Assembly (NCBI RefSeq): GCF_028771845.1
Contig: NZ_CP118270.1
Coordinates: forward strand, 4,278,001 to 4,342,000
Direction of reading: 5' to 3'
Length of the DNA: 64,000 nt
Origin: Paenibacillus marchantiae
GTDB lineage: Bacteria > Bacillota > Bacilli > Paenibacillales > Paenibacillaceae
Position 1 is the first letter of the stretch; each line of letters starts with the position of its first letter. Under the pieces are notes generated by a model. The model saw only the letters and a program-made list of their open reading frames with translations, made no database searches and had not been told where the DNA came from. Positions 49,394 through 62,750 of the stretch are shown one piece after another. The translations under genes and the position numbers were made by a program.

Positions 49394-50920
49394 CTAAAAA
49401 ATATCAAACGGTCGCATCATTTCGTAGTCTTCATGCTCAAGCATGTGACAATGCCATACATAACGCCCGGTAAAAGGTCCGAAACGAGCAATAATCGTTG
49501 TAACGTAACCGAAGGGGGTTGCTACAGTATCTTTTAATCCCATTTCATACTGATTAGGAGGAGTGGGGGGGCCTGTGAAAATAAGTTTTCCGGTTTTCTG
49601 AAAATGAGAAACATCAAAAGGTTGACGATCAAGAATTTGAAAATCAACCAAATGAATATGAATGGGGTGAGGGTCATCATCAATGATATTAATGATACGC
49701 CAGATTTCAATCGTATTTACTTCAATTCTTTCGGAAATTCGATCCATCCACATTTTTCCATCTAATAGATTTAAAGAGCGACCATATTGATCCTTCACTC
49801 TGACAAGTGTTAAATATCTTGTTCTCTTTGCCATACTTTTTGGGAGTCGATCGAATGCTTCTAAATAAAATGGAAGTGAGCTGGTATCTATACTTTTTAA
49901 TGGGACACTTATTCTGAATTGCATGATATCTATTGTTTCAGGGGACGCACTCTTGGTGACATTTTTGAGAATAATAGTTTGACCATAATATTGAGAAAAA
50001 TCAATGATCACATCTATACGCTCGGCACTTAAAAGTACAAATTCGTTTATTCTTATTGTTGTCTCAAGAAAGCCGCTATCGGTTCCAAGTTGATAAAATG
50101 GTTGATTGGATTCCATTTTTAATGTAAGGATTCGACTATTGGATGCGTTTAAAATTCGAAAACGGTATTTTCTTGGTTCTACCTCCAAAAATGGATAAAC
50201 CTTGCCGTTTATCAGAATGGTATCCGCATCAAAAGGAGGAACAAGGGAAGGATGAGGCAAGTTTGCATCGTTTTGATCCGGTTTGCTGGGGTAGTTTAGA
50301 GATCCGTCCGGATTGAAAGATCGGTCCACAATGAGTAGAGGGATTTCATATTTTCCTTTCGGAAGATTAAGGGATTGTTCATTTTGGTCTCGAATGAAAT
50401 AAAATCCCGCGAGTCCTGCGTAGACGTTCAATCTTGTAATGCCTACTGTATGATCGTGGTACCATAACATTGTAGCTCGTTCAATATTTGGATACGTATA
50501 AACCTCTCGTTCAAACAAAGGTCCCGTTTGCTCAAAATTTCTCGTAAACCAAGCTTCGGGGTAGCCATCACTATGAGCTGGCGTTCTTCCTCCATGTAAA
50601 TGCACAACGCTCCTACCCTCTGGAACAGTAATTTCCGAACCATGAATCGTAGTATCAACGGGAAGAAAGTGCTTATTGGGCAGGTCGTTCATCCATTTAA
50701 CAAACACGGTTTCATTCTTCATCACTTCAAACGTAGGACCTGGAAATGTTCCGTCATAACCCCATAAACGGGTAGGCCCGAGGTCTCTATGCAGCTTCTG
50801 AGAAAACTCCTTCATAGTCACTTCGTAATAAGAACTATTACTGCTTCGCTTCCTAGGAGATAATGTGTTTGGAATAGGCAGTTCATCCACGAATTTTTGT
50901 AGTTTTATCTTGTCAGGCAT
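49394..50920 (-). CDS. cotA: CotA-like multicopper oxidase (laccase)
   Basis: 508 residues, close to the length of Bacillus CotA. All four copper-ligand segments are present: VHLHGGRTPAHSDG, WYHDHTVGI, HPIHIHLVDF and the type 1 loop WHCHMLEHEDYEM. The opening TMKEFSQKLHRDLGPTRLWG and YDGTFPGPTFEV match CotA and related bilirubin oxidases. It oxidises phenols, bilirubin or Mn with reduction of oxygen to water. In Bacillus the homologue is a spore-coat pigment enzyme. There is no signal peptide, as in CotA. AGGGAGG lies 12 bases before ATG 50920, slightly long. Confidence 0.92.
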   Translation of the reverse strand: MPDKIKLQKFVDELPIPNTLSPRKRSSNSSYYEVTMKEFSQKLHRDLGPTRLWGYDGTFPGPTFEVMKNETVFVKWMNDLPNKHFLPVDTTIHGSEITVPEGRSVVHLHGGRTPAHSDGYPEAWFTRNFEQTGPLFEREVYTYPNIERATMLWYHDHTVGITRLNVYAGLAGFYFIRDQNEQSLNLPKGKYEIPLLIVDRSFNPDGSLNYPSKPDQNDANLPHPSLVPPFDADTILINGKVYPFLEVEPRKYRFRILNASNSRILTLKMESNQPFYQLGTDSGFLETTIRINEFVLLSAERIDVIIDFSQYYGQTIILKNVTKSASPETIDIMQFRISVPLKSIDTSSLPFYLEAFDRLPKSMAKRTRYLTLVRVKDQYGRSLNLLDGKMWMDRISERIEVNTIEIWRIINIIDDDPHPIHIHLVDFQILDRQPFDVSHFQKTGKLIFTGPPTPPNQYEMGLKDTVATPFGYVTTIIARFGPFTGRYVWHCHMLEHEDYEMMRPFDIF

Positions 50921-51123
50921 AAGAATTGGGAGCCTCCCTACGGTTAGAATTACTATGTAATTTTATGATCTTGAACTTGTTCATTATGTTAGTTGTATAT
51001 AACTATTGGGTATGCATTCTATTTGTATGTCATTTATACAAACGAGTAAAACGATAGTGATTTCCGCAATCTTTCACTATATGATAAAAGAAATGGATGA
51101 TTTCAATGAAAGGGAGCGTCGCT

Positions 51124-51870
51124 TTGGATCGGAAAAGTGGAACAAACACTCTTGGAAGGGCTTTGGATATTTTATTTGCGTTATCTGAGGCGAATGGAAC
51201 ATTATCAGTTAGTGAGATCGCAGAAAAGGTCAGCATTCCAGAAAGCTCAACCTATCGTTTTTTGCAAACGCTTGAAAAGAACGGGATTGTGGAGCGTAGG
51301 GGCAAAAATCAGATCGGACTTGGTTTGCGTATTCTGGATTTAGCTCGTAGCTTGAATCAACAAATTCATCGTGAGTTGTTGTCACTTGCATTGCCTATTA
51401 TGATCAATCTGATGGAGTCTACACAGGAAACTTCGTTATTGTTCGTTAGAACTGGAAATGATGCTGTTTGCATTCAACATGTGAAAGGTCGAGGTCTTAT
51501 TCAATTTGTAATCGAAAACGGTAGACGTTTGCCTTTACATCAAGGAGCTTCTGGAAAAAGTATCCTGGCTTTTGAAAATGAGAAGACGATTGAGCAGGTT
51601 GTAGCGAATATTACAAACGATCGGAACCGATCGGAATTGATTGATAGTTTGAAAGCTGTCAAGGAACAGGGCTTCGCTTGTACTGAAGGAGAATATGATC
51701 CCGATGTATTTGCGATTGGAGCACCGGTATTGGATAGTCATGGTCTTGTCGTGGCAAGTCTATCTATTGCGGGTCCTTTATTTCGCGGGACGAAAGAGAG
51801 GATACCCGAAATGATTAATAGCGTTATGGAATCGTCCAAGCATCTCTCCAATCTACTTGGAGGGGAATAG
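51124..51870 (+). CDS. IclR-family transcriptional regulator
   Basis: 248 residues. The winged helix at the N-terminus reads LGRALDILFALSEANGTLSV, SEIAEKVSIPESSTYRFLQ and KNGIVERRG. The GAF-like effector domain follows, with LPLHQGASGKSILAF and the closing VASLSIAGPLFR. IclR proteins commonly control catabolic operons. The likely start is TTG 51124, 7 bases after AAAGGGAG. ATG 51106 has only a weak upstream site. The nine-gene catabolic operon on the same strand starts about 300 bases downstream, so it is the probable target. Confidence 0.88.
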   Translation: MDRKSGTNTLGRALDILFALSEANGTLSVSEIAEKVSIPESSTYRFLQTLEKNGIVERRGKNQIGLGLRILDLARSLNQQIHRELLSLALPIMINLMESTQETSLLFVRTGNDAVCIQHVKGRGLIQFVIENGRRLPLHQGASGKSILAFENEKTIEQVVANITNDRNRSELIDSLKAVKEQGFACTEGEYDPDVFAIGAPVLDSHGLVVASLSIAGPLFRGTKERIPEMINSVMESSKHLSNLLGGE

Positions 51871-51921: not shown

Positions 51922-51951
51922 TTGACAAAAGAATGTTCTTGGTAATATTAT
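51922..51951 (+). promoter_or_regulatory. Candidate promoter of the importer/ergothioneine operon
   Basis: TTGACA (51922-51927) and TATTAT (51946-51951), 18 bases apart. It would give a leader of about 200 bases containing the hairpin at 52008-52057. Confidence 0.5.
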
Positions 51952-52109: not shown

Positions 52110-52140
52110 ATTTGTTTATCCGAGTTAACAAATTTGTTTA
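52110..52140 (+). repeat. Direct repeat ATTTGTTTA, 22 bases apart
   Basis: ATTTGTTTA at 52110-52118 and 52132-52140, two helical turns apart and just upstream of the ribosome site of the ATPase gene. It could be a regulator site (for example IclR), or chance in AT-rich DNA. Confidence 0.35.
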
Positions 52141-52167
52141 CTGTATTTTGGAGGGAGAGGAAGAACG

Positions 52168-53307
52168 ATGACTGAAGCAGTGGCAGTTGAATTCCAGCAT
52201 GTAAATAAAAATTATGGCTCTGGCAGTGTGCTGCATGATTTTAATCTTACGGTACCGAAAGGTCAGATTGTAACAATTATTGGGCCCTCGGGTTGCGGCA
52301 AAACTACACTGCTCAAAATGATCAATCGTCTTGAGGAGCCGAGTCAGGGAAGAGTTCTTGTCGAAGGGCGAGATGTAGGAGCTGCAGATGCAGTCCAACT
52401 CCGGCGCGATATCGGATATGTAATTCAGCAAATTGGCTTGTTTCCACATATGACCATAGAAGAGAATATTGGCATTGTTCCGAGGCTTAAGGGAGCGAGA
52501 AAGGAAGAACGAAAAGAGAGGGTTGATCTATTACTGAACCTGATCGGTCTCCCAGCTGAACAATATAGCAAACGTTATCCCCATGAGCTTAGTGGCGGGC
52601 AGCAGCAACGGATCGGTGTAGCCCGTGCATTGGCGTCAGACCCTTCCATTATTTTAATGGACGAACCCTTTAGCGCACTTGATCCCATCAGCCGAGTCCA
52701 GCTTCAAAAAGAACTGATCCAGCTGAATCAGCGGCTGCATAAAACGATAATTTTTGTCACCCACGACATTGAAGAAGCGTTGAAGATCGCTGATCGGATT
52801 ATTCTACTGAAGGAGGGTGAGGTAATTCAGAACAGTACACCTGCGGAGCTGCTGGCCCATCCGGCAAACGACTTTGTGATCGAATTTATCGGCCAGGAGA
52901 GGTTTCGTCCTTCTTTTCCAAGTGGGATGGCACAGCATATTATGATTGACGGTATCTCGATAAGTAATATTTCAACAATCTCAGAGGCACTTGAACTCCT
53001 GCGCTTGAATCAGGCTGATGCTCTTGCTGTGACCGGGAATTGGGGAGAACTGCTGGGTATTGTAGGAATCGAAGAAATCAGCGAACATCTGCAGCATGAC
53101 AGCAAAATGAAGGTCGGTGATATTGTGAAAAATGGGACCCGCGCCCTCTTTGAGAACACACCGATCTCTGATGTATTCGAACTGATGCAAAGTCAACGAA
53201 TATTGCCTGTCGTGGATGATCAGAACCGTTTAATCGGTACGGTAACCCGTTCAGGTGTTATTGAAGCCATTGGTCGACACTTTCACCGAGAGGAGACCAG
53301 TGCATGA
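52168..53307 (+). CDS. OpuC-type betaine ABC importer, ATPase with CBS domains
   Basis: 379 residues. Walker A GPSGCGKTTL, signature LSGGQQQRIGVAR and Walker B IILMDEPFSALDP are present, then two CBS-type repeats in the last 130 residues (GIVGIEEISEHL and LPVVDDQNRLIGTVT). This is the OpuCA/ProV layout used for quaternary-amine uptake. The permease gene overlaps by 4 bases. The genes behind the importer look like ergothioneine breakdown enzymes, and EgtV ergothioneine importer ATPases are of this same family, so a trimethyl-betaine of histidine is a plausible cargo. Confidence 0.92.
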   Translation: MTEAVAVEFQHVNKNYGSGSVLHDFNLTVPKGQIVTIIGPSGCGKTTLLKMINRLEEPSQGRVLVEGRDVGAADAVQLRRDIGYVIQQIGLFPHMTIEENIGIVPRLKGARKEERKERVDLLLNLIGLPAEQYSKRYPHELSGGQQQRIGVARALASDPSIILMDEPFSALDPISRVQLQKELIQLNQRLHKTIIFVTHDIEEALKIADRIILLKEGEVIQNSTPAELLAHPANDFVIEFIGQERFRPSFPSGMAQHIMIDGISISNISTISEALELLRLNQADALAVTGNWGELLGIVGIEEISEHLQHDSKMKVGDIVKNGTRALFENTPISDVFELMQSQRILPVVDDQNRLIGTVTRSGVIEAIGRHFHREETSA

Positions 53308-53954
53308 ACCATATATGGGATACGTTAGCTGCTGACTGGCCGATGATCGTTGAGAAAATGGGAGAGCACATGTATCTGTCCCTCATTTCCGTCCTCATGG
53401 GGGGAATCATTGCAATACCCCTTGGTATTTATCTGACCAGCCGCAAGCGGATGGCGGATACAATCATTACTGTAGTCTCTGCCATCCAGACCATTCCAAG
53501 TCTGGCGTTGTTCGGATTCATGATTCCGCTGGTAGGCATCGGCACAACACCTGCCATTATTGCATTGACCTTATATGCCGTGCTTCCGATGCTCCAGAAC
53601 ACCTATGTCGGTATTAATGGAGTTCATCCTTCTCTGATTGAGGCAGGAACCGGGATGGGCATGACCAAATGGCAGATGATGAAGATGATTCAGCTTCCGA
53701 TTGCGCGTAGTGTCATCATGGCCGGCGTAAGACTCGTCGCGGTGCAAACGATAAGTCTTACGACAATTGCGACCTATATTGCCGCAGGAGGACTGGGAGA
53801 TATCATCACAAGAGGCATTGCCATGATCAATACGGTTACCATTATGGAAGGGGCCATCCCCGTCTCGCTGCTGGTAATCTCCGTTAACTTCATTTTGCTG
53901 CTTCTTAACAGGGCACTTACCCCAAAGGGGTTGCGGCATTTGAATAAATTTTAA
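53304..53954 (+). CDS. OpuC-type betaine ABC importer, permease
   Basis: 216 residues with about five or six membrane helices and the binding-protein-dependent permease signature (EAGTGMGMTKWQMMKMIQLP). VISAIQTIPSLALFGFMIPL is characteristic of OpuCB/OpuCD. It overlaps the ATPase stop by 4 bases. Many OpuC systems encode two different permeases. Here a single one is present, so it probably works as a homodimer. The substrate is inferred from the operon, not from this gene. Confidence 0.9.
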   Translation: MNHIWDTLAADWPMIVEKMGEHMYLSLISVLMGGIIAIPLGIYLTSRKRMADTIITVVSAIQTIPSLALFGFMIPLVGIGTTPAIIALTLYAVLPMLQNTYVGINGVHPSLIEAGTGMGMTKWQMMKMIQLPIARSVIMAGVRLVAVQTISLTTIATYIAAGGLGDIITRGIAMINTVTIMEGAIPVSLLVISVNFILLLLNRALTPKGLRHLNKF

Positions 53955-53983
53955 GCTTTTACCTAGGGAGAGGGGCACCAATC

Positions 53984-54922
53984 ATGACAACCACCAACAA
54001 AAAAAGATGGAATGTAACCAAAGGAGGCAGGCTACTTATCACCCTTGGGCTGGTGTTGACAACCGTGCTGACAGCAGTGGGGTGCTCGAATTCCAATGCG
54101 TCCGGGCGTAACGATACCATCGTACTGGCCACGAAAGGATTCGCAGAGTCTGATATTTTGGCCAACGCCTTCAAACTCTTGGTTGAGAATGACACGAAGC
54201 TGAAGACAGAGATTAAGAAGCTGGACAACACACTGCTCTGGAATGCCATTGACTCAGGGGATGTGGATGCCTATGTAGAGTACAGCGGGACGGCCTTGAT
54301 CAATATTTTGAAGCAGGAACCAGAATTTGATGCAGATAAAGCATTTAAAACAGTCGTAACCCAACTCAAGGAAAAGAACAAATTGATTGCGCTAGACCCC
54401 CTAGGGTTCAACAATACCTATGTCTTTACAGTACGTAGAGAAACCGCTGAGAAGTATGGGCTAAAGACAGCTTCTCAACTTGCTGAGAAATCAGGTGAAC
54501 TGGTTTTTGGAGCCAGTGAGGAGTTTCTGAATCGCCCAGATGCCTGGCCTTATGTAGAGAGCATATACAAACCAAAGTTCAAGAAGACAAAGTCCATTCA
54601 GGACCCTTCCTTGCAGTATCAGGCGATAAAGCAAAAGCTGATTGATGTGAAGCTCTCGTATTCAACGGACAGCCAAATCCTGGCCAATGACCTCGTAGCG
54701 TTGGAGGATGACAAGCATGTGTTTATTCCGTATGATGCATTTCCACTGGTTCGTGAGCAGACGCTGGATGAACATCCGGAGTTGAAAGAAGTCCTCAACA
54801 AGTTGGCAGGAAAACTGGATGAGAAGGCAATGCAAAAGTTGAATGCAGAGGTGGAACAGGATCAGAAACCGGCACTTGATGTTGCGAGGGACTGGCTGAA
54901 AGCCCAAGGGCTAATCAAGTGA
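53984..54922 (+). CDS. OpuC-type substrate-binding lipoprotein
   Basis: 312 residues. A lipoprotein signal with lipobox LTAVGC places Cys34 as the lipidated residue, anchoring it outside the membrane. The OpuAC-like domain shows IVLATKGFAESDILANAF, then VDAYVEYSGTALINIL and FIPYDAFPLVRE. This family recognises quaternary ammonium groups through an aromatic box. In an operon with ergothionase-like and thiourocanate-hydratase-like genes, ergothioneine or a methylated derivative is the likely ligand. In pneumococcal EgtU this domain is fused to the permease. Here it is separate. Confidence 0.9.
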   Translation: MTTTNKKRWNVTKGGRLLITLGLVLTTVLTAVGCSNSNASGRNDTIVLATKGFAESDILANAFKLLVENDTKLKTEIKKLDNTLLWNAIDSGDVDAYVEYSGTALINILKQEPEFDADKAFKTVVTQLKEKNKLIALDPLGFNNTYVFTVRRETAEKYGLKTASQLAEKSGELVFGASEEFLNRPDAWPYVESIYKPKFKKTKSIQDPSLQYQAIKQKLIDVKLSYSTDSQILANDLVALEDDKHVFIPYDAFPLVREQTLDEHPELKEVLNKLAGKLDEKAMQKLNAEVEQDQKPALDVARDWLKAQGLIK

Positions 54923-54998
54923 ATTCCTACATGATAGATCAATAATTAATGGTAATTACGTTGTCTAACAACGAGTTAATAAGAGAGGGTGACGCATT

Positions 54999-56360
54999 GT
55001 GAGTAATGATAAACGGCAGCTTGCGCTGGGGGCAATGATGTTTTTTCCGGCGGGTGAGCATATTTCAAGTTGGAGACATCCCGGGTCTGAAGCAGAGGGA
55101 CTCCTTGATTTCAATTATTACAAAAGAATTGCGCAGACGGCGGAGCGTGGAAGATTCGACATGTTCTTCTACGCCGATGAACTGTACGTCTGGGATCGAT
55201 TCGAATCCGGTATTAGCCATGCCAATAGCATTCGGCCGGAGCCGTTCACACTACTGTCCGCACTGGCGGCGGTAACGTCTCATATTGGTTTGGCGGCGAC
55301 CATCTCGACGACCTATAACGATCCGTATCATATTGCCCGGAAGCTGGCGACGCTGGATCATTTCAGTGGCGGGCGAGCCGCGTGGAATATTGTGACGTCT
55401 CAGACGGACGAAGAGGCCCGGAACTTCGGTAAGGAACGCCATCTGCAGCATGAGCTGCGATATGAACGTGCGAAAGAATTTGTAGAGGCAACGCAAGGAC
55501 TTTGGGATAGTTGGGAAGAGGATGCACTGCTGTTCGACAAGGAAAATGGGTACTTTGCAGACAAGAACAAGCTGCACAATCTGGATTACGAAGGTACTCA
55601 TTTTAAAGTAAAAGGACCCCTTAATATCTCCCGTCCACCACAAGGGTATCCTGTTTTGATCCAAGCCGGAGCTTCGGAAGCCGGTAAAGAGGTAGCCGCG
55701 GCAACGGCCGAAATTGTATTTGCCCCTGGTGGCACATTCGCAGAAGGGAAAGCGCTGTATGAAGACATCAAGGGAAGGCTTTCCAAATATGGACGTTCTC
55801 CCGATGAGATCAAGATATTGCCTGCCTTGATGCCCATTATTGGTGCTACTGCGGAAGAGGCAGCAGAGCAGCTTGCTATTGTGGAGAATCTTACTCCAGA
55901 CCGACTGGCTTTGGACTTGCTATCACATTACATCGGGGTAGACGTTTCCGGCTATCCGCTGCATGAACCGCTGCCTTTTCTACCTGAAGTAGAAGGCTTT
56001 AACCAGAGTAAAAGTGGTTTACAACGTATCCGACGTATCCTCAAGGAAGAAGATTTGACGCTGATTCAGCTTGCCAAACGGATTGTAAGCAAACGGGCTT
56101 TTGCCGGAACTCCCGAGCAGATTGCCGATCATATTGAGGAATGGTTCAACAATGGTGCTGCGGATGGATTCAATATTGCCTTTACTCACCTTCCTGGTGC
56201 TCTGGATGATTTTGTAGCAGAGGTAGTGCCCATTCTTCAGCACAGAGGTTTGTTGCGCCTAGAATATGAAGGAACTACACTGAGGGACCATTTTGGACTC
56301 AGCAAACCAGAGAACCGCTATTCACAAGAAAAGATTACTTTAGGAACGGCAGAAAGATAA
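54999..56360 (+). CDS. LLM-class flavin monooxygenase (NtaA/SnaA/DszA family)
   Basis: 453 residues. Family marks are MMFFPAGEHISSWRHPGSEA at the start, MFFYADELYVWDRF, RKLATLDHFSGGRAAWNIV and PQGYPVLIQAGASEAGKEVA. These enzymes use reduced FMN and oxygen to cleave C-S or C-N bonds or to oxidise sulfur compounds. The start is GTG 54999 after AGAGAGGG. No flavin reductase is in the operon, so FMNH2 must come from elsewhere. It sits between the betaine importer and the urocanase paralogue. A role on a methyl-sulfur or trimethylamine product of ergothioneine breakdown is inference. Confidence 0.88.
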   Translation: MSNDKRQLALGAMMFFPAGEHISSWRHPGSEAEGLLDFNYYKRIAQTAERGRFDMFFYADELYVWDRFESGISHANSIRPEPFTLLSALAAVTSHIGLAATISTTYNDPYHIARKLATLDHFSGGRAAWNIVTSQTDEEARNFGKERHLQHELRYERAKEFVEATQGLWDSWEEDALLFDKENGYFADKNKLHNLDYEGTHFKVKGPLNISRPPQGYPVLIQAGASEAGKEVAAATAEIVFAPGGTFAEGKALYEDIKGRLSKYGRSPDEIKILPALMPIIGATAEEAAEQLAIVENLTPDRLALDLLSHYIGVDVSGYPLHEPLPFLPEVEGFNQSKSGLQRIRRILKEEDLTLIQLAKRIVSKRAFAGTPEQIADHIEEWFNNGAADGFNIAFTHLPGALDDFVAEVVPILQHRGLLRLEYEGTTLRDHFGLSKPENRYSQEKITLGTAER

Positions 56361-56427
56361 CTCAACGAGGAAGTACAAATAGCTCTAATGTGATGATTTA
56401 GCAGGAGACGGAAAGCGAGGAGTGACT

Positions 56428-58098
56428 GTGAAAAGGATTGTTGCTGAACGAGGCGGCGTGCTGCGGTGCAAAGGCTGGCGTCAGGAAGCGTTGCTGCGCA
56501 TGCTGGAGAACGTGCTCGAGAACGGTGAGAACCAGAAGGAGCTGGTCGTCTATGCCTCCCTTGGAAAGGCCGCCCGTAACTGGTCTTCCTATCTGGCAAT
56601 TGTCGATACCCTAAAGCAATTGGAGGAAGACGAAACACTGGTCATTCAGTCAGGCAAACCGATTGGTGTATTCAGAACCCATCGACAAGCACCACTTGTC
56701 GTAATGGCTAACTGCAATCTGGTCGGCCGATGGGCAACCAGCGAGAATTTCTATGAGTTGCAAGATAAAGGTCTGATTATTTGGGGAGGCCTTACTGCGG
56801 CTGCTTGGCAATACATCGGATCACAGGGTGTCATACAGGGAACCTATGAAATCTTCCAAAGTATCGCAAGGCTGCACTTCGGCGGCGATTTGCGAGGACG
56901 TTTCATTCTAACCGCTGGCTTGGGAGGTATGGGGGGCGCGCAGCCTTTAGCAGGTTATATGGCTAATGCGGCAATCCTTTGTGTAGAAGTTGCGGAGGAG
57001 AGAATAGACAAACGAATCACTTCCGGTTATTTACAGCGAAAGACAGATAGCCTGGATGAAGCATTGCTATGGATTAATGAAGCTGTAAACACCGGCACAA
57101 GCCTGTCCGTTGGACTGCTCGGAAATGCTGCGGATGTTTATCCTGAGCTGCTTCGGAGAGGTGTCCAGCCGGATATTGTGACTGACCAAACATCTGCACA
57201 TGATTTGTTATACGGCTATATTCCAAGCGGATACTCACCTGAATCCGCTGGTGTGGCACGACGAGAACATCCGACGGAGCTTCAAGCCGCTGCCGGAGCT
57301 TCAATTGCGAATGAAGTAAAGGCGATGTTGGAATTCAAACAACGGGGCGCGGTTGTTTTTGACAATGGTAACAATATCCGTTCACAAGCAGTGCAATATG
57401 GAGTTACGAATGCTTTTGAGATCGATATATTTACGGAAGCTTTTCTTCGTCCCCTTTTTGCGCGGGCTATCGGTCCTTTCCGCTGGATCGCTCTTAGCGG
57501 CGAGGCAGAGGATATACGAATCATTGACGATTATATCCTGAAAGAATTTAGTGATAATGACATCGTATCCAATTGGATCAAACTCGCGAATACGTATGTG
57601 CCGTTTGAGGGATTGCCGGCCCGTATAGGCTGGTTTGGGCATAAAGACCGCAGCAAGCTGGCACTCGCGGTTAACCAATTGGTTCGAGAAGGAAAACTTG
57701 CAGGACCAGTCGCCTTCTCCCGAGATCATCTGGATGCAGCAGCTATGGCTCATCCCAACATTATGACCGAGCGAATGAAAGACGGAAGCGATGCGATTTC
57801 GGACTGGCCGTTGTTGAATGCCATGCTCAATTGTGCATCCATGGCTGATCTGGTGGCGATTCATTCCGGCGGAGGGGGCTACTCTGGTTATATGACAAGT
57901 GCGGGAGTCACCATTGTAGCCGACGGATCAGAGGCAAGTGATGCACGTCTTCGTACAGCGCTTGACAATGATACTGGTCTTGGCGTACTCCGATATGCGG
58001 ATGCCGGTTATGAGCAATCGTTGGCCGAGGTTAAAACAAAGGGGATTGCCCGAATTGATACCCATCAATATGAAACCATTTCATCCACTGTAAAATAA
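56428..58098 (+). CDS. Urocanase paralogue, likely thiourocanate hydratase
   Basis: 556 residues, aligning along the whole urocanase family. The NAD-binding region ILTAGLGGMGGAQPLAG is kept, as are RDHL, KDGSDAISDWPLLNA and GGGGYSGY. The catalytic Cys of urocanase (RPLFCxGxGPFRW) is Ala345 here, in RPLFARAIGPFRW, and the usual YGQMTAGSW is WGGLTAAAW. Loss of that Cys argues against ordinary urocanate as substrate. A Paenibacillus thiourocanate hydratase is known from work on ergothioneine breakdown, and the neighbouring MIO-less lyase supports the same role. GTG 56428, 5 bases after AGGAG, is the preferred start. Confidence 0.87.
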   Translation: MKRIVAERGGVLRCKGWRQEALLRMLENVLENGENQKELVVYASLGKAARNWSSYLAIVDTLKQLEEDETLVIQSGKPIGVFRTHRQAPLVVMANCNLVGRWATSENFYELQDKGLIIWGGLTAAAWQYIGSQGVIQGTYEIFQSIARLHFGGDLRGRFILTAGLGGMGGAQPLAGYMANAAILCVEVAEERIDKRITSGYLQRKTDSLDEALLWINEAVNTGTSLSVGLLGNAADVYPELLRRGVQPDIVTDQTSAHDLLYGYIPSGYSPESAGVARREHPTELQAAAGASIANEVKAMLEFKQRGAVVFDNGNNIRSQAVQYGVTNAFEIDIFTEAFLRPLFARAIGPFRWIALSGEAEDIRIIDDYILKEFSDNDIVSNWIKLANTYVPFEGLPARIGWFGHKDRSKLALAVNQLVREGKLAGPVAFSRDHLDAAAMAHPNIMTERMKDGSDAISDWPLLNAMLNCASMADLVAIHSGGGGYSGYMTSAGVTIVADGSEASDARLRTALDNDTGLGVLRYADAGYEQSLAEVKTKGIARIDTHQYETISSTVK

Positions 58099-58143
58099 CA
58101 TCGGGAAATGGTTCAACGAAATTTTCATCTAGGAGGAGATTTT

Positions 58144-59250
58144 ATGCGGGAATTAACAAGAGATGATGTAAACGCTGCTGTCAAAGGCGGCTCTGTATTT
58201 GCCAGCGGCGGCGGAGGCTGGGTGGATCATGGACTGGAGATTGGACACGCGGCACTGAGTATCGGACGACCGAAGCTCCTGTCGGTAGATGAACTGCCGG
58301 ATGACGCCATTATATTGACATGTACCGCAATTGGGGCACCTGCCGGACGAGACTGGCAAATGCTTGGAAAGGACTACATTAAGGCTGTACAGCTAATCAT
58401 TGAAAACTATGATGGCAAAATAGCCGGGGTCATGACTCCGCAGAATGGTATGTCCAGCACCATTAACGGTTGGCTGCCAGCAGCAGCCCTTGGTCTTGCT
58501 GTTATTGATGCTACTGGAGATATCCGCGCACATCCGACAGGCAAGATGGGCTCACTTGGCCTCGCGTCTTCTATTGATTACGAGACGATACAAGCAGTGG
58601 CTGGCGGCAAACCAGAGATTGGCAGCTACATGGAACTTGTGGTTAAGGGAACTCCGGCACGGACCTCCAATATACTGCGTACTGCTTCGGACATGGCGGG
58701 TGGGTTTATTGCTGCCGCACGGCACCCGCTCCCGATCAAACATATTAAGAAGCACGCTGCGATCGGTGGCATCTCGATAGCGATTGAGTTGGGCCGTGTC
58801 ATTATGGAGGCAGAGCCGGATGGTCCGGAAGCGGTGCTAGAGGCCGTGGTACACAAGACCAATGGAAGAATCCTCGGCAGAGGGACGGTGACGACAAAAA
58901 ATGTTCATTATTCAGGTGCTTTCGATGTGGGTACGATCGAAGTATCCATCCCCAACCGTAGGCTTACACTTCATGTGATGAATGAATATATGGCTGTTGA
59001 GGACGATGAAGGTACACGCCTGACCACGTTCCCGGACGTAATTACTACGTTTGACCTGAAGAAGGGTCTGCCTGTGAGTGTAGGAGATGTTGAAGAGGGT
59101 ATGGAAATAGCGGTCTTCGCCATTGATAAATCCAAGGTACCACTGAGTTCCAGTGTAAAGGACCCCACCGTATATCCCGAGGTGGAAGAAATGCTGGGCA
59201 TCGATTTGCAGAGCTATGCTTTTGACAAGGAGAAAACAATCTATGCTTGA
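58144..59250 (+). CDS. DUF917 protein, candidate (S-methyl)thiohydantoin desulfurase
   Basis: 368 residues. It has the DUF917 two-domain pattern: the Gly-rich start VFASGGGGWVDHGLEIGHAA, then NGMSSTINGWLPAAALGLAV and DVGTIEVSIPNRRLTLHVMN. From memory, this family has been tied to desulfuration of (S-methyl-)thiohydantoins, the step after thiourocanate hydratase, giving hydantoin-5-propionate. Its place between the urocanase and lyase paralogues fits. GGAGGAG selects ATG 58144. It overlaps the lyase gene by 8 bases. The next enzymes (hydantoinase, carbamoylase) are not in the window. Confidence 0.85.
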   Translation: MRELTRDDVNAAVKGGSVFASGGGGWVDHGLEIGHAALSIGRPKLLSVDELPDDAIILTCTAIGAPAGRDWQMLGKDYIKAVQLIIENYDGKIAGVMTPQNGMSSTINGWLPAAALGLAVIDATGDIRAHPTGKMGSLGLASSIDYETIQAVAGGKPEIGSYMELVVKGTPARTSNILRTASDMAGGFIAAARHPLPIKHIKKHAAIGGISIAIELGRVIMEAEPDGPEAVLEAVVHKTNGRILGRGTVTTKNVHYSGAFDVGTIEVSIPNRRLTLHVMNEYMAVEDDEGTRLTTFPDVITTFDLKKGLPVSVGDVEEGMEIAVFAIDKSKVPLSSSVKDPTVYPEVEEMLGIDLQSYAFDKEKTIYA

Positions 59251-60787
59251 GGAGAGCATTCTCTTGCTCAGCTCTAACCAAATTGTATTGGACGGAAGCC
59301 GCATGACCATTGAGGATGTGGAGAGTGTGGCTCGTTCGCGGAGATCCGTAGTGATTGCAGATGAAGCCTGGGAACGACTAGTCTCTGCACGTAAAGTAAT
59401 TTATGAACTAGCTGCAGAAGGCGTTCCTGTCTATGGACTGAATCGTGGAGTAGGCTGGAATAAGGACAAGGTCATCGGAGATGATTATTTTGAAGATTAT
59501 AACCGGAATTTATTGTTATCTCACAGTGCTGGGGTGAAGCCGGAGGCTACAGAAGATGTCGTTCGTGCTGTGATGCTTGCCCGGTTAAATAGCCTGCTTG
59601 CAGGAGCTACCGGTGCTCAGCCCGATATTGCCAAACGTTATGCAGATTTTCTCAATATGGGTATTCACCCGGTTCTACCGCTTCGCGGATCTGTGGGTGC
59701 GGCGGATATTACCTCGATTTCGCATATCGGTCTGGCCATGATTGGTAAAGGTGAAGTGAACATGGCAGGCAATCGGATACCAGCGAGCGATGCGTTAATG
59801 GTAATGAGTTTGGAACCCCTGCGCCTTGGCCCCAAGGACGGTCTGGCTATCGTCAGTTCCAATGCTCTCTCAGCCGGAAACGGAGCACTGGCGCTCTTCG
59901 ACATCCAAGAATTACTGGATACCGCAGACTCTGTATACGCGCTGTCTTTGGAAGCCATCCGGGGAAATATTAGTCCGTTGGATGAAGCGGTTCATCTCAA
60001 GCGTCCTTTTCCAGGGCAGTTAAAGAGCCTGGCCATGGTCCGGCGTAGTCTGCGTGGCAGCGGACTCTGGAATGGTTTTAATCCTGATTCGCTGCAAGAC
60101 CCGCTGAGCTTCCGTGACGCTTGCCAGATTCATGGTGCGGCAAGAGATGCTTATGCCTATGCGCGCCAGCAGCTTGAAGTTCATCTCAATAGCTCGGACG
60201 ATAACCCCTGTGTGCTGACGGAAGAGCGGAGAATCTTGTCCTGCGCCAATTATGATCCCATAACATGGACATTAGGCTTCGAGATGCTTGGAAGTGCGCT
60301 GCATCATGTATCCAAAAGTTCATGCTATCGCATGATCAAGCTGGGTGACCCGGACTTTACAGGGTTAAGCCGTTTCTTAACTGCTGATTCGAGCAGCTCC
60401 GTCGGTTTCTGCACGGTTCAGAAAACAGCAACCTCACTGGATGCAGAAATTCGTCATTTGAGTAATCCGGTTTCATCTGATTATTTCTCACTGGCGGGAG
60501 ACATGGAGGATCATGCAGCCAATTCTCCTTACGTTGTAAGCAAGGTAAGAGAGATTGTTGATCGTGTTACTTATATTTTGGCGATTGAAGCGCTCCATGC
60601 TGCTCAAGCTATTGATCTGCGTATGGATATGACTCTGGGTGAGGGGACAAGAGCAGGTTATGAACTGTTGCGTTCCGAGGTTCCTTTTTTGTCAGAAGAC
60701 CGTAATCAAACCATAGATATAGAGCGTGCTTACCTTCTGCTTAAGGAAGGGAAATGGCTGAAAGCAGTTCGTGGGAAGATGAATTAA
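59243..60787 (+). CDS. MIO-less histidine-ammonia-lyase paralogue, likely ergothionase
   Basis: 514 residues of the aromatic amino-acid lyase fold. Kept features are Tyr64 in VYGLNRGVG, the His of NLLLSHSAG and EDH in the last third. The MIO-forming Ala-Ser-Gly triad is absent: the usual GSVGASGD is Gly152-Ala-Ala-Asp155, one residue shorter. The Tyr of QDPYSLR is Leu (QDPLSFR). Ergothionase (ergothioneine trimethylamine-lyase) is a known member of this family that works without MIO, because trimethylamine is a ready leaving group. ATG 59243 follows AAGGAG and overlaps the DUF917 gene. Confidence 0.88.
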   Translation: MLEESILLLSSNQIVLDGSRMTIEDVESVARSRRSVVIADEAWERLVSARKVIYELAAEGVPVYGLNRGVGWNKDKVIGDDYFEDYNRNLLLSHSAGVKPEATEDVVRAVMLARLNSLLAGATGAQPDIAKRYADFLNMGIHPVLPLRGSVGAADITSISHIGLAMIGKGEVNMAGNRIPASDALMVMSLEPLRLGPKDGLAIVSSNALSAGNGALALFDIQELLDTADSVYALSLEAIRGNISPLDEAVHLKRPFPGQLKSLAMVRRSLRGSGLWNGFNPDSLQDPLSFRDACQIHGAARDAYAYARQQLEVHLNSSDDNPCVLTEERRILSCANYDPITWTLGFEMLGSALHHVSKSSCYRMIKLGDPDFTGLSRFLTADSSSSVGFCTVQKTATSLDAEIRHLSNPVSSDYFSLAGDMEDHAANSPYVVSKVREIVDRVTYILAIEALHAAQAIDLRMDMTLGEGTRAGYELLRSEVPFLSEDRNQTIDIERAYLLLKEGKWLKAVRGKMN

Positions 60788-60823
60788 TTCTCTCAATAAT
60801 GATGGAAAGAGGAGGAAGTTACA

Positions 60824-61645
60824 ATGGCACATGTTGATCCCCAGTGGTCTTTACGGGACCATTCCCATGAGAGCTGGCAAATTCGTGCGGAGGTCAGTCC
60901 AAAGTGGATTCGCGTAAAATTTGACGGGCAGTTTATCGCAGACAGCAAGGAAGTTCTCGTTGTTACCGAAACAGGTAGACTCCCCGTTTATTATTTTCCG
61001 AAGAAAGATGTGAACCTTGACGTATTCATACCTTCAGAAAAGCTGGTGAATGATCCGTATAAAGGAAATCAATTGTTTTGGCATATTAGCAGCGGTGGAC
61101 GTACGGTAGAGAATGCGGTATGGAGCTATTCGGGTGTGCAACAGGAAGAGGTCTATTTGCAGAATCATTATTCTTTTTCATGGAACAAAGTAGATGCCTG
61201 GTATGAAGAAGAGGAAGAAGTATTCGTTCATGCGCGGGACCCATATTCCAGGGTGGATGCGATTCCAGCCTCACGTCATGTTCAAATCGAGTTAGATGGA
61301 GTAATTGTTGCTGATAGCAAGCGACCTGTGATTCTCTATGAGACAGGATTGACCCCACGTTATTATCTTCATCAGGAGGATGTGCGCCTTGATTTGTTGA
61401 AGCCCGTTGATTTAACCACAACTTGCCCTTATAAAGGGATAGCCAGCTATTGGACTGCTTCAGTTAATGAAAGAGAATACAATAATCTTGTTTGGAGCTA
61501 TAAGGACCCATTACCAGAAGTTCATGAAGTTGAAGGACTGTTATGCTTTTATCATGAGTCAGTGGATGCGCTCTATGTGGATGGAGTAAAGTGGTCCCTA
61601 TCTGCTGATGATCGCCTTCCTTACAGCAATTTAGGATGGGGGTAA
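60824..61645 (+). CDS. Double-DUF427 protein 1
   Basis: 273 residues with two DUF427 domains (about 25-110 and 140-235). Each repeat has the marks ADSK, a Glu-x-Gly and LPVYYFPKKDV or TPRYYLHQEDV, then PYKG, an SYWT- or FWHI-type strand, and VWSY. A linker with FSWNKVDAWYEEEEEVFVHA separates them. DUF427 proteins are small beta-tent-like folds, often of unknown function. GAGGAGG precedes ATG 60824. It is linked to the lyase gene (36-base gap) and to a paralogue 6 bases downstream. A metabolite-binding or chaperone role in this pathway is inference. Confidence 0.82.
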   Translation: MAHVDPQWSLRDHSHESWQIRAEVSPKWIRVKFDGQFIADSKEVLVVTETGRLPVYYFPKKDVNLDVFIPSEKLVNDPYKGNQLFWHISSGGRTVENAVWSYSGVQQEEVYLQNHYSFSWNKVDAWYEEEEEVFVHARDPYSRVDAIPASRHVQIELDGVIVADSKRPVILYETGLTPRYYLHQEDVRLDLLKPVDLTTTCPYKGIASYWTASVNEREYNNLVWSYKDPLPEVHEVEGLLCFYHESVDALYVDGVKWSLSADDRLPYSNLGWG

Positions 61646-61651
61646 AGTGAA

Positions 61652-62494
61652 ATGGTAAATCATCTGAATTCATCTATTGCCTGCTCTCTGCGTCAGGAAG
61701 ATAAACTAATGTTGAAGGCAGATCTAAATCCGCGCCGGGTCCACATCACGTTTGCTGGTGAGACTATTGCGGACAGCACACGTGTTATTACACTTCATGA
61801 GCGCGGCAAGCTACCGGTATATTATTTTCCACAAGTAGATGTGTCGCAACAATTTCTGGTGAAGACCGAGTTGCAGACCCACTGCCCTATTAAAGGGGAT
61901 GCTTCTTACTGGACCATTCAAGTGGGTGAGCGTATTTCTGAAAATGTAGTCTGGGGTTATGAGAATCCACTTAAGGACATCGAGTCGATCAAAGGTTTTG
62001 TGGCTTTCTATTGGAACAAGGTGGACGCCTGGTATGAAGAAGAAGAGCAGATCTTCGTCCACCCGCGTGACCCATACAAGCGAGTTGATGCGATCCAAAG
62101 TTCCCGCCATGTTCAGATCGTTCTAGATGGCATCAAGCTTGCAGATAGCCGCCGCCCGATGATTGTATTTGAAACGGGCGTCCCCGTTCGCTATTATCTT
62201 CCGATTGAAGACGTGGATCAGAATGTGCTCACCGCAAATGACAAGCAGACATCCTGCCCTTATAAAGGTGATGCATCCTACTGGACGGCTGTTCTCAATG
62301 GACAGACCTATGAGAATATCGTGTGGAGCTATCTAAATCCAATTCCTGAAATTCCAAAGATTGCTGGATCGATGTCGTTTTATAATGAGCAAGTCGATGT
62401 CTATGTGGATGGCGAGTTACAGCCCAAACCAAAATGGTACTATTCTGCACTTGAATTCTTTAATGAAACTGAAGTAACTGTCAGAAGACAATGA
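61652..62494 (+). CDS. Double-DUF427 protein 2
   Basis: 280 residues, again two DUF427 repeats. IADSTRVITLHERGKLPVYY is followed by CPIKGDASYWTI and VVWGYENP. Then LADSRRPMIVFETGVPVRYY is followed by CPYKGDASYWTA and IVWSYLNP. The linker VDAWYEEEEQIFVHPRDPY is nearly the same as in protein 1, so the two arose by gene duplication after domain duplication. The ribosome site is the GGGGGTAA region before ATG 61652. It is the last gene of the operon, with a terminator-like structure after it. Confidence 0.82.
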   Translation: MVNHLNSSIACSLRQEDKLMLKADLNPRRVHITFAGETIADSTRVITLHERGKLPVYYFPQVDVSQQFLVKTELQTHCPIKGDASYWTIQVGERISENVVWGYENPLKDIESIKGFVAFYWNKVDAWYEEEEQIFVHPRDPYKRVDAIQSSRHVQIVLDGIKLADSRRPMIVFETGVPVRYYLPIEDVDQNVLTANDKQTSCPYKGDASYWTAVLNGQTYENIVWSYLNPIPEIPKIAGSMSFYNEQVDVYVDGELQPKPKWYYSALEFFNETEVTVRRQ

Positions 62495-62506: not shown

Positions 62507-62549
62507 GGGGGACTCTGTCTGCTGCATAAGCGGATAGCGCCCTTTTTTT
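62507..62549 (+). terminator. Imperfect terminator after the ergothioneine-type operon
   Basis: GGGG-CTCTGTCTGC pairs loosely with GCGGATAGCGCCC, followed by a clean run of seven Ts. Confidence 0.5.
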
Positions 62550-62627: not shown

Positions 62628-62750
62628 ATGAGTGAAGTAGGATATGGAAATGTTGGAGGTCTTGGTGGATACGGTGGTTTCACATCCATCGGTGCAATCC
62701 TTGTTCTGTTCATCTTGTTGGTCATCATCTCTAAAGCGTTCCTGGTTTAA
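62628..62750 (+). CDS. YjcZ-family-like small membrane protein
   Basis: 40 residues. A Gly/Tyr-rich start (SEVGYGNVGGLGGYGGF) is followed by one membrane helix (IGAILVLFILLVIISKAFLV). This is the pattern of the YjcZ sporulation-associated small proteins of Bacilli. GAGGAGG lies 7 bases before ATG 62628. It is a stand-alone gene with a terminator close behind. Its function in the family is not known beyond association with spores. Confidence 0.78.
   Translation: MSEVGYGNVGGLGGYGGFTSIGAILVLFILLVIISKAFLV

Follow-up and report, generated by a model that had tools for sequence, protein, structure and literature searches.

A Paenibacillus member of the histidine ammonia-lyase family lacking the MIO triad is very probably an ergothionase, encoded with putative enzymes of ergothioneine breakdown

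What does a protein of the histidine ammonia-lyase (HAL) family do when it lacks the Ala-Ser-Gly triad that forms the 4-methylideneimidazol-5-one (MIO) cofactor? The question is raised by a gene in a 64,000-nucleotide stretch of the Paenibacillus marchantiae genome (contig NZ_CP118270.1, positions 4,278,001 to 4,342,000), referred to here as the window and used for all coordinates unless another locus is named. Judging by sequence, the gene (59243..60787, + strand) very probably encodes an ergothionase, i.e., a MIO-less, HAL-family trimethylamine lyase, which would open the breakdown of ergothioneine by the enzymes of its operon. That ergothionase works without MIO is stated in PMC13405746 and, both enzyme and pathway being already known, the gene would be an added member of the ergothionase family. 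The assignment gives a name to a gene whose highest-scoring NCBIfam matches are histidine ammonia-lyase models below their cut-offs, and places a Paenibacillus among the bacteria probably able to degrade ergothioneine, with release of trimethylamine and sulfide.

The open reading frame of the lyase runs from 59216 to 60787 (523 amino acids), and because an AAGGAG motif (59227-59232) lies 10 nt upstream of 59243, we prefer this start, the one proposed in a preliminary description of the locus, over 59216; the gene then overlaps the 3' end of the preceding one by 8 nt. The product has the HAL-family fold (Lyase_aromatic, PF00221, 467 bits), yet it carries neither the MIO triad nor an above-cut-off score on the hutH model (TIGR01225, 373.5 bits against a cut-off of 539.15). 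Its triad region reads P-L-R-G-S-V-G-A-A-D-I, such that in the alignment GSVGAA-DI, one residue shorter, stands opposite the GSVGASGDL of HutH, and QDPLSFR occupies the place of the HutH-type QDPYSLR or QDAYSLR. Both the shortened, replaced triad and the Leu in place of the active-site Tyr had been noted in the preliminary description, and both stand. Its further claim, that the other catalytic-site residues are kept, holds in part: Tyr64, Arg291 and Glu422-Asp423 are invariant in our mixed alignment A1, but the HutH motif NGTQ is replaced by SSNA.

Among solved structures, the closest relative of the lyase is the Treponema denticola ergothionase (PDB 6s7j, 6s7q), with 503 bits as compared to 220 for the next HAL, and 48% identity over 496 residues. 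The two share the HAL fold, the missing triad with its one-residue deletion and QDPLSFR, and carry the related motifs SSNA (here) and SCNA (T. denticola), whereas GSVGAADI in the former corresponds to SSIGEGDI in the latter. In a 49-row motif alignment that includes both proteins, all 32 rows at least 40% identical to the lyase have the same deletion together with QDPLSFR or QDPISFR, and neither feature occurs in the 17 rows whose identity is 36% or lower; the missing triad is therefore not a product of chance or decay, and the gene is not decayed, as had been proposed. In a 43-row tree, the 26 MIO-less rows, again including both proteins, are split from the 17 MIO-bearing ones by a 100/100 branch (the T. 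denticola row is long), and the predicted fold of the lyase likewise groups with the T. denticola enzyme. Sequence, predicted fold and tree thus support the ergothionase proposal, and placement inside ordinary HutH, named at the outset as what would speak against it, was tested by the tree and came out against HutH. One word of the preliminary description, "paralogue", proved wrong for this genome: the lyase is the sole PF00221 match found in its single 6.98 Mb contig. A phylum-wide search with A1 gave matches in 113 of 398 genomes, MIO-bearing and MIO-less alike, and, A1 being mixed, it gives no ergothionase tally; of ten loci fetched from it, eight carried the triad and two did not (the lyase itself, L074, and L075).

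Bacterial ergothioneine catabolism reportedly takes five steps (Beliaeva, Leisinger and Seebeck are said to have described them in 2021), and NCBIfam holds models for the hydratase, the desulfurase, ErtD and ErtE of this pathway. By these curated cut-offs, the two genes directly upstream of the lyase encode the next two enzymes, a thiourocanate hydratase (56422..58098, +; NF058530, 1005.8 against 930) and a thiohydantoin desulfurase (58144..59250, +; NF058529, 605.4 against 440). The reading frame of the latter is open from 58108, and its ribosome-binding site and the model favor the start at 58144. Both proteins fall below the cut-offs of the models for the S-methyl forms (791.5 against 880 and 315.1 against 450, respectively), and we rejected an S-methyl-ergothioneine operon, as judged by the core enzymes, on these scores. 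Sequence places the three core enzymes in their families, and from this placement we infer their catalysis and the flow between them. A quaternary-amine ABC transporter would import ergothioneine or a close relative, and the ergothionase would eliminate trimethylamine to leave thiourocanate, with MIO dispensable because trimethylammonium is in itself a good leaving group. The urocanase-like enzyme would then hydrate thiourocanate to a thiohydantoin, from which the S-Me-THD-type enzyme would remove sulfide, yielding hydantoin-5-propionate. Its conversion to glutamate in two further steps may be carried out by a non-dedicated hydantoinase and carbamoylase encoded elsewhere in the genome, where a D-hydantoinase-like protein is found at genome positions 545017-546366.

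The breakdown operon of the preliminary description accordingly stands for steps 1-3 but not for steps 4-5, as searches with the proteins of a related locus, L013, found no ErtD or ErtE homologue in the cluster, a less expected result. NCBIfam recognized ErtD and ErtE at L013 alone, and the remaining loci were judged by similarity to it; its ErtE scored 551.0 against a cut-off of 520, and its ErtD, though best matched by the ErtD model, 495.6 against 650. In the P. marchantiae genome, the best ErtD-like matches, each 34% identical and ahead of the weaker L020 and L021, are a dihydropyrimidinase (656.5 against its own cut-off of 393.25; 232.6 on an ErtD model) and an allantoinase (510.7 against 357.85; 281.5 on an ErtD model), the NCBIfam scoring having covered these two. 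A carbamoylase search, whose query was the second L013 carbamoylase rather than ErtE itself, gave two matches, for which the ErtE model (cut-off 520) returned 369.6 and 353.0. As far as tested, steps 4-5 thus appear to have no dedicated genes in this genome; the low ErtD scores argue against a divergent ErtD without excluding one, since the ErtD of L013 is itself below the cut-off. The genome probably degrades rather than makes ergothioneine, since it yielded neither a second urocanase match nor a match for EgtD, though for EgtD the control was weak (the same search passed the cut-off in 0 of 14 control genomes). In the literature collection searched, no paper came up for thiourocanate hydratase by name, and nothing that looked relevant from its listing for ergothioneine with Paenibacillus and a degradation pathway.

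We compared the operon with 16 related loci obtained by scanning genome contigs, in stretches of ~10 kb on each side of the lyase. The desulfurase was found near the lyase in 15 of the 16 and the hydratase in 12, ErtD and ErtE homologues were both present in 7, and an IclR homologue lay within the stretch read in 11. At three loci (L005, L007 and L008), the lyase and desulfurase are kept, with no thiourocanate hydratase in the stretch read. In P. xylanivorans, the closest named relative (L002:8886-10005), the match to the desulfurase is split into two segments lying in different reading frames, through either sequencing error or disruption of the gene, and the permease is matched only in part. 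In another P. marchantiae genome, G145, neither the lyase (E 1e-30), the FMN-dependent monooxygenase (E 1e-140) nor the first double-DUF427 protein (E 1e-15) described below had a match, so the operon is patchy within the species. A nucleoside-hydrolase-like gene lies inside three ergothionase clusters (L003:6142-7101, L070:7459-8394 and L062:9531-10505), as judged by PF01156 in the first two and by a similar sequence start in the third. In Clostridium bowmanii (L010:9995-16771), an ergothionase-type gene is followed by a molybdenum hydroxylase set, a possible alternative fate for thiourocanate; the opposite strand encodes an ordinary, MIO-bearing HutH 3.7 kb beyond the ergothionase-type gene. 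Finally, a MIO-less HAL-family protein 42% identical to the lyase (L067:9496-11049, genome G033) is clustered with a UbiD decarboxylase, a cyclase, a short-chain dehydrogenase/reductase and ErtD-like and ErtE-like proteins; the stretch read contains neither a thiourocanate hydratase nor a desulfurase, and the protein possibly belongs to a different MIO-less lyase pathway.

Relative to the five-step pathway, the P. marchantiae operon has extra genes, likewise less expected, encoding an NtaA/DmoA-family, flavin mononucleotide (FMN)-dependent monooxygenase (54999..56360, +; TIGR03860, 539.2 against 279.7) and two proteins, a (60824..61645, +) and b (61652..62494, +), each with the beta-tent domain DUF427 (PF04248) in both halves, over the cut-off. 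Of the 16 related loci, 8 have the monooxygenase near the lyase (the L008 copy lies 10.7 kb from it and is truncated by the end of the locus), 6 have a DUF427 protein of at least 45% identity and two more have one of 35-37%. In the order (296 genomes), nine genomes have a member of the close monooxygenase clade, and all nine carry an ergothionase-type gene; eleven have proteins like DUF427 protein a, and ten of these carry such a gene. Over 398 genomes of the phylum, DUF427 was found in ten, with double-length frames only here (280 and 282 amino acids, others 85-158), and we therefore claim the association with ergothionase only for the double form and within the order. We count the monooxygenase and both DUF427 proteins among the operon's gene set; their function is made testable by this close tracking. 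That the monooxygenase stands in for ErtD was rejected, as in L009/L064 (one record) and L065 it is present alongside homologues of both ErtD and ErtE, in one row with the core genes.

The transporter comprises a quaternary-amine-type ATPase with a CBS domain (52168..53307, +; TIGR01186 proV, 380.5 against 326.6), a permease (53304..53954, +; PF00528) and an OpuAC-type substrate-binding protein (53984..54922, +; PF04069, 202 bits). In EgtU, Gly244 is invariant and Phe293 is present in all members, according to PMC9732360. The binding protein resembles EgtU in its type and in having Lys at the position of Lys242, but it is encoded separately from the permease and, when aligned to a fragment of Lmo1422 (4z7e), has Phe for Gly244 and Tyr for Phe293, a less expected result on which EgtU orthology was rejected. 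In the 20 binding proteins that we aligned (this one included, and a subset of those encoded at the loci), Gly244 and Phe293 are both without exception replaced. The proteins fall into two types: ATKGFAESD and variants, to which the present one belongs, accompany the monooxygenase or a DUF427 protein, and GSK(N/D)FTES or GGKPFTEQ are found at loci lacking the monooxygenase; L011 has one of each.

What might these additional proteins do? The solved structures closest to the monooxygenase are YtnJ (1tvl) and DszA (5tlc), at about 370 bits each, which associates it with the CmoJ/YtnJ/DszA-type flavin monooxygenases (PMC10863075); unlike these, it adjoins betaine-type transporter genes in the loci read. 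A tentative reading, which we consider possible rather than probable, is that the transporter, the monooxygenase and the DUF427 pair together make up a so far undescribed accessory module for the use of ergothioneine. A modified (e.g., S-alkylated) ergothioneine would be imported and its modification cleaved oxidatively in a CmoJ-like manner, while the ligand of the beta-tent domains may be either the substrate or an intermediate with an imidazolethione, thiohydantoin or hydantoin ring. If true, this would give the double-DUF427 proteins a ligand and a pathway, and it is the part of our findings worth a bench test. A literature search on cereblon with hydantoin and MsCI4 found no paper; one on DUF427 by itself listed, among others, two papers on cyanobacterial glutamine synthetase in which the domain is mentioned.

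An alternative for the module, compatible with the ergothionase assignment, is that the monooxygenase demethylates the released trimethylamine and does not act on sulfur. The TIGR03860 family takes its name from NtaA, a nitrilotriacetate monooxygenase, and DmoA, a dimethyl sulfide monooxygenase; some of its members dealkylate amines, and step 1 is expected to release trimethylamine. However, copies at L058-L060 sit with quaternary-amine transporter genes with no lyase in the stretch read, and the gene is missing from 8 of the 16 related loci, and we regard this activity as unlikely. A rival to the assignment is the proposal that the main substrate of the lyase and operon is a relative of ergothioneine, i.e., S-methyl- or otherwise S-alkylated ergothioneine, or hercynine. 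The departure of the binding protein from EgtU at both diagnostic positions would agree with this, as would the location of a relative of C-S cleaving enzymes between the transporter and core genes. Yet both the hydratase and the desulfurase score above the cut-offs of the ergothioneine-type models and below those of the S-methyl type. In addition, the core is the same where the monooxygenase is missing, and the binding proteins read from those loci also lack the EgtU residues, all of which makes a main substrate other than ergothioneine very improbable. An ordinary or decayed histidine ammonia-lyase, for which the HAL fold and the Pfam and NCBIfam HutH matches could be cited, is ruled out with near certainty by the sub-cut-off score, the triad missing throughout a conserved group that includes the T. 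denticola ergothionase, the tree and the lack of a second urocanase match in the genome.

All genes of the ergothionase operon (52168-62494) lie on one strand, downstream of a gene for an IclR-family protein (51097..51870, +; PF01614, 101 bits; PF09339, 56 bits), its probable regulator. A promoter-like site (TTGACA-18-TATTAT, 51922..51951, +) precedes the transporter genes, and a terminator-like hairpin (62515..62537, +) follows the last gene, both matching their consensus; in the window, neither kind of element is clearly more frequent than in shuffled sequence (22 sites against a mean of 19.0, sd 4.0, and 11 hairpins against 10.1, sd 3.2). The near-palindrome GTTAACAAATTTGTTTAC (52124..52141), a possible operator, is the sole such site in the genome at up to two mismatches; as an IclR operator it was rejected, since among the relatives only the closest, L002, has it at the corresponding position, which is weak conservation. 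Directly before the regulator, on the opposite strand, lies a multicopper oxidase gene (49394-50920). Beyond the operon, a 40-amino-acid, Gly-rich reading frame with a hydrophobic tail (62628-62750) resembles small sporulation proteins of the YjcZ type.
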